From: Methanolobus zinderi | GTDB taxonomy: Archaea; Halobacteriota; Methanosarcinia; Methanosarcinales; Methanosarcinaceae | Reading direction: 5' to 3' | Length of the DNA stretch: 64,000 bases | Assembly (NCBI RefSeq): GCF_013388255.1 | Contig: NZ_CP058215.1 | Coordinates: 558,001-622,000, forward strand | In this document: positions 37,843 through 39,899 of the stretch, one piece after another | Numbering within the stretch: the first letter of the stretch is position 1 | How the letters are laid out: every line of letters starts with the position of its first letter | Notes under the pieces: generated by a model | What the model saw: only the letters and a program-made list of their open reading frames with translations | The model's database searches: none | Told to the model about the DNA's origin: nothing | Program-made: the position numbers and the translations under genes

Positions 37843-38640
37843 ATGACAATGGAAATAGACGTACTGGAGATATCTGAGAGGTCTGCAAAATTCGTATTGT
37901 CCAATGTAAGTGCAGCCTTTGCGAACGGTATAAGGAGAGCGGCCCTCTCCGATGTACCTACACTTGCAATTGACGATGTCAACATATACAACAATACGTC
38001 TGTCCTCTTTGACGAACAGCTTGCATTAAGGCTTGGTCTTATCCCTCTGGCTGCGAACATGGACGAACTTGTACCCATGGAGGAGTGTAGCTGCGGCGGC
38101 ACAGAATGTCCTGCGTGCAAGGTCTCCCTGACTCTCAGTGCCGAAGGGCCCAAAATAGTATACTCAGGCGACCTTATTTCCTCTGATGAAACGGTACAGC
38201 CTGCAGATTCGAATATTCCCATCATTGACCTGAGAGAAGGTCAGAAGGTAGTGCTTGAAGCAATAGCCCATGTGGGTTATGGCTACCAGCATGCTAAATG
38301 GCAGGCAGGTGTTGCCTGTGGATACAAGAACATGCCAGTCGTCACGTTCAACAACTGTGACATGTGTACTGCATGCATCAAGGAATGTCCGCAGAGCATC
38401 ATCAAGATGGGGCCTGAAGGAGCTGAGATATCCGAAGAGGATATTTTCAAGTGTATACTCTGCAAACTCTGTGCTGAAAAGTGTGATATCGATGCGATCA
38501 CAGTTTCCCAGGATGAGAATTCTTTCATTCTGACTATGGAATCGGATGGCTCTTACACTATCCAGGAGTTAATTATAAATGCAGGGAAGAACATTAAGGA
38601 CAAAGCCGCCCGGATGGGGGAAATCTTAGATTCCCTGTAA
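37843..38640 (+). CDS. rpoD: RNA polymerase subunit D with two [4Fe-4S] cluster motifs
   Basis: Archaeal counterpart of eukaryotic Rpb3, which nucleates assembly with subunit L. The 265-residue protein has the alpha-like dimerisation segment (NGIRRAALSDVPTLAID, about residues 28-44) and an inserted ferredoxin-like domain with two complete sets of cysteines: 172/175/178/182 and 204/207/210/214. Both clusters therefore look intact, as known for the Methanosarcina enzyme. ATG at 37849 is an alternative start two codons in. Here the operon ends with rpoD and a hairpin; eL18-uL13-uS9 do not follow. Confidence 0.95.
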   Translation: MTMEIDVLEISERSAKFVLSNVSAAFANGIRRAALSDVPTLAIDDVNIYNNTSVLFDEQLALRLGLIPLAANMDELVPMEECSCGGTECPACKVSLTLSAEGPKIVYSGDLISSDETVQPADSNIPIIDLREGQKVVLEAIAHVGYGYQHAKWQAGVACGYKNMPVVTFNNCDMCTACIKECPQSIIKMGPEGAEISEEDIFKCILCKLCAEKCDIDAITVSQDENSFILTMESDGSYTIQELIINAGKNIKDKAARMGEILDSL

Positions 38641-38687: not shown

Positions 38688-38775
38688 GCGGGGGTTGCCC
38701 AGCCAGGCCAAAGGCGCTAGGTTGAGGGCCTAGTCTCGTAGGAGTTCGTGTGTTCGAATCACACCTCCCGCACCA
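38688..38775 (+). tRNA. tRNA-Leu (GAG), copy 1, CCA encoded
   Basis: 88-base class II tRNA. Acceptor GCGGGGG/CTCCCGC with a G6-U67 wobble, anticodon arm CTAGG-TTGAGGG-CCTAG (anticodon GAG), long variable arm, GTGTGTTCGAATCACAC T arm, encoded CCA. Confidence 0.95.
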
Positions 38776-38845
38776 TATTTTCTATCATAGGCTGCTTTGT
38801 CAGATAAATACTATCCAGAGATAACTTTCCCGGTCATTATCATGT

Positions 38846-38933
38846 GCGGGGGTTGCCCAGCCAGGCCAAAGGCGCTAGGTTGAGGGCCTAGTCTCGTAGG
38901 AGTTCGTGTGTTCGAATCACACCTCCCGCACCA
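38846..38933 (+). tRNA. tRNA-Leu (GAG), copy 2, CCA encoded
   Basis: Identical over all 88 bases to the copy 158 bases upstream, while the sequences between and around them differ. A tandem duplication limited to the gene body is the simple reading. Confidence 0.95.
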
Positions 38934-39100
38934 TACTTTCAACATCAGTTTTCACGACTTTTGACCGCATTTTTTTGTGTACTACAGTGAAATATGTCTT
39001 TTTCTATTATAATCTAAAGATATCAAATTTTAACTAAAAGACCAATCGTCTGAACTATTTTTGTTATCAGAAGGCATTTTACTGAGCTTAGGTGCCGAAT

Positions 39101-39110
39101 GAATATATAC
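39101..39110 (+). promoter_or_regulatory. TATA box of the small-protein/PRC-barrel unit
   Basis: GAATATATAC; transcription should start near 39133, at the palindrome GGGTATACCC (39133-39142). The stretch 38934-39100 before it shows nothing recognisable apart from T-rich sequence behind the tRNA. Confidence 0.5.
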
Positions 39111-39132
39111 TTATGAACCCTCATTTTGAATT

Positions 39133-39235
39133 GGGTATACCCCATTATAGCCAGCAGAATTAAAATGCGTAGAATCGGGTTTCTGTTTGAATTATGTTTA
39201 AACCCGTGATCAGGTCTACGCTGAATAGAGGGGAG
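39133..39235 (+). promoter_or_regulatory. Highly structured 5' leader before a 46-residue gene
   Basis: Contains the perfect palindrome GGGTATACCC (39133-39142) and a long two-part stem: GCGTAGA/TCTACGC (39167-39173/39215-39221) outside CGGGTTT/AAACCCG (39176-39182/39200-39206). The outer stem ends 6 bases before the Shine-Dalgarno GAGGGGAG (39228-39235). Such nested perfect complementarity over 55 bases is unlikely by chance and suggests an RNA control element (inference). Confidence 0.55.
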
Positions 39236-39240
39236 TAAAT

Positions 39241-39381
39241 ATGGCTAAGAAATTTAAAGAAGATGAAGAAAGGATCGAAAATATACGTGCTGAGGATACG
39301 ACAGCAAAATCGAGAAGAGAGGCAATTGAGGACATAGAAAATAAAGAAAGAGAAGATATCGAACGTCAGAATAGAAAATAA
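39241..39381 (+). CDS. 46-residue charged coiled-coil-like small protein
   Basis: Short gene not reached by normal length cut-offs. Translation begins MAKKFKEDEERIENIRAED and ends IERQNRK. About half of the residues are Lys, Arg, Glu or Asp, with no Cys, Trp or membrane segment; the whole should be helical, possibly a coiled coil. Support for it being real: an excellent ribosome site GAGGGGAG-TAAAT-ATG, a TATA box and structured leader upstream, and a PRC-barrel gene 74 bases downstream. I do not recognise a family. Confidence 0.72.
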   Translation: MAKKFKEDEERIENIRAEDTTAKSRREAIEDIENKEREDIERQNRK

Positions 39382-39455
39382 GGTCAGAGTTTAATTTTCT
39401 ACATAAATCTGGCAAACAGATATTTTAAGAAGATGAAATTCAGGGAGTGATAGCA

Positions 39456-39827
39456 TTGACAGTTCCAAAGGTATTATCTGCCAGTAGTGTTGAAGGAGAT
39501 TCCGTGACAAATCCAGAGGGTGAGGATCTGGGGAAGATCGAGGAAGTTATGCTCGACCTGGATGAAGGAATGGTTGCATATGCCGTACTTTCGTTCGGAG
39601 GTTTCCTTGGAATCGGTGACAAGTTATTTGCGGTCCCGTGGCAGGCGCTGAGCAAAAAGCCGGATTCACATAGCTTTGTCCTTGATGTTGACAAGAATAC
39701 ACTTGAGAATGCTCCGGGATTTGACAAGGCCAACTGGCCGGGCACCGGTACAAAAGAACACAGGGATTATATTACAAGAATCTCCGAATACTATGGCTAC
39801 AAACCATACTGGATACATAATCCGTAA
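39456..39827 (+). CDS. PRC-barrel domain protein
   Basis: A 123-residue cytosolic protein. Residues about 10-75 form a PRC barrel (GDSVTNPEGEDLGKIEEVMLDLDEG...AYAVLSFGGFLGIGDKLFAVPW), followed by a conserved tail with NAPGFDKANWP and EYYGYKPYW. Proteins of this exact layout are widespread in bacteria and linked to stress, though their molecular role is unclear. Start: TTG at 39456 has AGGGAG 8 bases upstream and gives the usual MTVPKVLSAS start; the in-frame GTG at 39447 overlaps that site. Its bacterial character suggests past transfer. Confidence 0.87.
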   Translation: MTVPKVLSASSVEGDSVTNPEGEDLGKIEEVMLDLDEGMVAYAVLSFGGFLGIGDKLFAVPWQALSKKPDSHSFVLDVDKNTLENAPGFDKANWPGTGTKEHRDYITRISEYYGYKPYWIHNP

Positions 39828-39899
39828 ATGTACAAAAAATGAATAATTCTTTTTGAGGAAGTAATCCCATACTTCCTTTCTATTTTGAATTCTCTGAGC

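Follow-up and report, generated by a model that had tools for sequence, protein, structure and literature searches.

Long leaders are common in methanogens, and few of them have been explained. The locus described here lies in a 64-kb window (the whole stretch of DNA that was analyzed) of a Methanolobus genome, to be referred to as G000. It raises the question of whether the leader of a gene for a 46-residue, highly charged protein is a regulatory RNA. An earlier note on this DNA had proposed a switch, responding to temperature, salt or a ligand, which would govern a small stress module made up of this gene and a PRC-barrel gene that follows it. The sequence elements behind the proposal are all in place (Table 1): the TATA box, the palindrome, the strong ribosome site and the two nested perfect 7-bp stems. 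The best explanation of the locus is a different one, a lineage-restricted Methanolobus small-protein gene with its own TATA promoter and an ordinary leader. We hold this explanation to be moderately probable when its parts (the gene, the leader, a probable passive hairpin, and the PRC gene as a neighbor) are taken jointly.

Table 1. Features of the tRNA-Leu/uppS region, in order of their positions in the window.
Feature	Position	Strand	Basis or remark
Tandem pair of tRNA-Leu(GAG) genes, identical copies	38688-38933		Upstream border of the slot
TATA-like box ATATATAC	39103-39110	+	Sequence
Palindrome GGGTATACCC at the predicted transcription start	39133-39142	.	Sequence
Possible hairpin, two nested stems	39167-39221	+	Sequence; folding; relatives
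Outer stem, perfect 7 bp, GCGTAGA with TCTACGC	39167-39173 with 39215-39221		
Inner stem, perfect 7 bp, CGGGTTT with AAACCCG	39176-39182 with 39200-39206		
Ribosome-binding site GAGGGGAG of the small gene	39228-39235	+	6 nt past the stems
Small gene, 46-residue highly charged protein, predicted single helix	39241-39381	+	46 codons, ATG at 39241; orthologues, selection, helix model
PRC-barrel protein gene, TTG start	39456-39827	+	PF05239, E 2e-16; relative of PDB 3htr
Terminator-like hairpin, then T-rich tail	39855-39878	+	Pattern scan; between the PRC gene and the convergent uppS

The small gene of the earlier note is genuine and under purifying selection, because its orthologues share the same tRNA-Leu/uppS gap and their substitutions favor third codon positions. 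Orthologues are found in three further species among 27 Methanolobus genomes. Their proteins are 50-87% identical to the window protein, with 87% identity for the nearest relative (Methanolobus sp. UBA118, G048) and about 50% for both G051 and G063. Between the window gene and that of G048, dN is 0.064 and dS is 0.24, and codon position 3 holds 26 of the 43 differences between the genes of G051 and G063. When 238 genomes of the class are searched with a profile, no other convincing match appears, and the protein is covered by no Pfam, NCBIfam or PHROGs family. Membership in DUF3892 (PF13031) was rejected, as the window protein scores 14.9 bits against a cut-off of 22.3 and the three orthologues give no match. 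A viral origin was also rejected, with no match in viral contigs or PHROGs.

The protein is predicted by AlphaFold, from the single sequence, to form one continuous helix (pLDDT 91.7). Most likely, it is soluble and binds to another protein as a partner. The proteins of G051 and G063 carry a TANWxK motif at the C-terminus, which is absent from the window protein. Lineage-restricted small ORFs with their own ribosome sites are likewise found in the same archaeal family, among the small proteins (up to 70 residues) detected by Ribo-seq in Methanosarcina mazei (PMC11456600). In comparison, the search of the class found no homologue of the window protein outside Methanolobus, and the protein is predicted here from its sequence.

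The gap between the tRNA-Leu(GAG) pair and uppS (to 39899) is a variable gene slot, since its inserts differ among the Methanolobus species. In 17 of the 27 genomes, the gap does not exceed 157 bp. In G000 and G048 it holds the small gene together with the PRC gene, and in G051 and G063 the small gene without the PRC gene. M. halotolerans SY-01 (G041) has another helical protein together with a PRC gene at this position, and a gene of about 287 codons, whose product looks like an HD-domain protein, is located in the gap of G042 and G059. Both the leader and the small gene are present in G048; in M. halotolerans, remnants of either were looked for and none was found. What the locus contributes is a real small-protein family that is confined to Methanolobus and, next to tRNA-Leu, a slot whose gene content varies.

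Several minor features of this region were also observed. The terminator-like hairpin has a counterpart in G048. Upstream of the tRNA pair, the gene for RNA polymerase subunit D (37843-38640) retains 4Fe-4S binding domains. A stretch of 263 bp (38934-39196) has no substitutions between G000 and G048, with one 1-base indel, and its flanks differ by 2-13%. This identity would reflect either recombination or some constraint. A constraint on the RNA was rejected, as the stretch takes in untranscribed spacer as well, and the reading is weakened further by a nearby 400-bp coding tract that is also free of substitutions.

Transcription of the small gene is predicted to start at about 39129-39133; TATA elements are located 19-22 nt before the start in M. 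psychrophilus (PMC5378194). The resulting leader of about 110 nt had been read as a hint of a switch, but this length is within the ordinary range for Methanolobus. The 5' UTRs of M. psychrophilus have a median length of 55 nt, with 51% of them longer than 50 nt and 24% longer than 150 nt (PMC5378194). The ribosome site of the small gene is kept as GGRGAG in all four species that carry the gene. Moreover, GTCT is found at the same distance upstream of the ATG (27 nt) in all four, and the proximal leaders therefore look homologous.

Chance estimates for the nested stems were obtained both from shuffles of the leader and from a count over the window. When the 107-nt leader is shuffled, 0.23% of the sequences contain nested 7+7 stems (P = 0.002), and such stems are found at 10 separate places across the 64-kb window, so that one such place is unremarkable by itself. 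Over its whole length, the leader has no folding advantage over its shuffles (z -0.6 to -0.9). The 59-nt hairpin region beats its own shuffles with z -3.3, for a region that was picked after being seen. In the energy model of the full window transcript, the nested fold as drawn is not the best fold. A competing fold, which also pairs the start codon region (39148-39152 with 39243-39247, AGCAGAA with TTCTGTT), is preferred there and lowers the pair probabilities of the two stems to about 0.1 and 0.01. In the window transcript, the best fold pairs the start codon; in G048, the best fold contains both the start-codon pairing and the nested stems.

Few relatives are available for comparison of the leader itself. 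A DNA search with the leader finds the sister species G048 (97%) as the sole match, the remaining hits being chance matches of 15-33 bases. A covariance model of the G000 and G048 leaders finds no further such element in the 27 genomes. The best other match to this model, in G056 (E 9e-4), falls within an acetyltransferase-like reading frame and was rejected as chance.

The most serious alternative to a leader hairpin is that the complementarity of the stems arose by chance in a leader of ordinary, AT-rich sequence, with functional RNA structure absent. This explanation is given considerable weight, though rather less than even, and the recurrence of nested stems across the window agrees with it. 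The check that the earlier note had named, for compensatory changes in the stems, gives a mixed result. Three substitutions separate G000 and G048 in the 55-nt stem region, of which two are at unpaired positions and one converts a U-A pair to U-G. This is a wobble and not a compensatory change, and it counts in favor of chance. The outer stem is also not kept in G063, which has four of the seven pairs at those coordinates and forms a different, shorter hairpin, and RNAalifold predicts no shared structure from the automatic alignment of the four leaders.

The evidence against chance comes from G051, where the outer stem is re-formed exactly, at identical coordinates (ATTTGGG/TCTAAAT, 7 of 7 pairs), with three double changes and two G-U pairs. 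Such a stem arises in 0.1% of shuffles (P 0.001) and in 0.12% of random 55-mers from the window, or 0.8% if the arm may slide by 3 nt, for a match that was spotted by eye before testing, with several comparisons possible, and whose 5' arms are set out of register by MAFFT. When the G051 region is folded alone, the outer stem returns, together with an inner TCGGG/TCCGA stem.

A hairpin in the leader is possible, with modest support from this one distant orthologue. In the explanation that we prefer, a hairpin probably forms in the leader, a short distance before the ribosome site of the small gene. The likeliest role for this hairpin would be a passive one, in which the 5' end of the mRNA is protected and the ribosome site is kept free, because roughly 6 nt separate the stems from that site downstream, and the site is conserved. 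A more ambitious version is unlikely, in which translation of the orphan protein, charged and helical, is controlled in Methanolobus by a genus-specific two-tier hairpin directly upstream of the ribosome site that compensatory changes have maintained. Proof that the hairpin controls translation would make it one of the few cis-acting RNA elements of a methanogen that are understood.

Control could also be exerted on the DNA and not the RNA, with GGGTATACCC as an operator for a DNA-binding repressor. The palindrome is positioned at or just past the predicted transcription start, and it is identical in the sister species G048. However, a 10-bp palindrome is expected by chance in 11% of shuffles of this leader, and GGGTATACCC is not seen upstream of the small gene in G051 or G063. 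In addition, GGGTATACCC is not enriched in the genome, which has no set of similar sites, and its candidacy as a regulon site was dropped for this reason. An operator at this position is considered improbable.

The switch itself is the least probable explanation. In it, temperature, salt or a ligand would move the leader from the nested hairpin to the start-codon-paired fold or back. Two competing folds of similar energy are predicted for the window leader, and for the same genus there is a description of an Hsp20 leader whose ribosome site is buried (PMC5378194). Against this, the two pairings are not mutually exclusive in the best fold of G048, the ribosome site of the small gene is not covered by the stems, whole-leader folding does not exceed that of shuffles, and the leader has neither an Rfam match nor a similar element elsewhere in the 27 genomes. 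The switch is not supported. Sensing of any signal is not indicated: leaders as long as this one are frequent in Methanolobus, and the outer stem is retained by one of the two distant orthologues. For Rfam 15, a test that covers described RNA families and has undescribed elements outside its reach, the leader gives no match at gathering score, and the region 38934-39460 gives chance matches only (E 3-5). The Hsp20 leader (Mpsy_0075), one of the long 5' UTRs of M. psychrophilus R15, is of similar length and has a predicted stem-loop near the ribosome site (PMC5378194). In that leader, the stem hides the ribosome site, and a temperature-dependent choice of start was measured, whereas the site in the window leader is outside the stems and the likeness is drawn from sequence.

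The PRC-barrel gene was correctly recognized in the earlier note. Its protein (123 residues) scores 60.1 bits against PF05239, with a curated cut-off of 21.2, and is a member of this family by sequence, with a solved structure (3htr) among its relatives and others in many bacteria and methanogens. The start of the gene is moved from GTG 39447 to TTG 39456, most likely the better choice, since the corresponding codon in M. halotolerans is ATG and follows the same GGGAGTGAT, the PRC gene's own ribosome site.

In the window, 74 bp separate the small gene from the PRC gene, and the two could perhaps be co-transcribed. The PRC gene is a neighbor and not a fixed partner, because each gene occurs in relatives without the other. 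The PRC protein has no match in G051 or G063, two of the four small-gene carriers, and M. halotolerans has a PRC gene in this slot with the small gene absent. The small stress module is contradicted by this distribution; the tie of the PRC protein to the leader and the small gene is adjacency alone, in two near species.

In the spacer that separates the small gene from the PRC gene (39409-39440), G048 has a 10-bp tandem duplication (TTTAAGAAGA), which the window does not have. In genus g13 of the same family, PRC-barrel domains are in tandem (for example G074:C1:737099-739764), with several copies per reading frame of 270-850 codons, and these frames are clustered.
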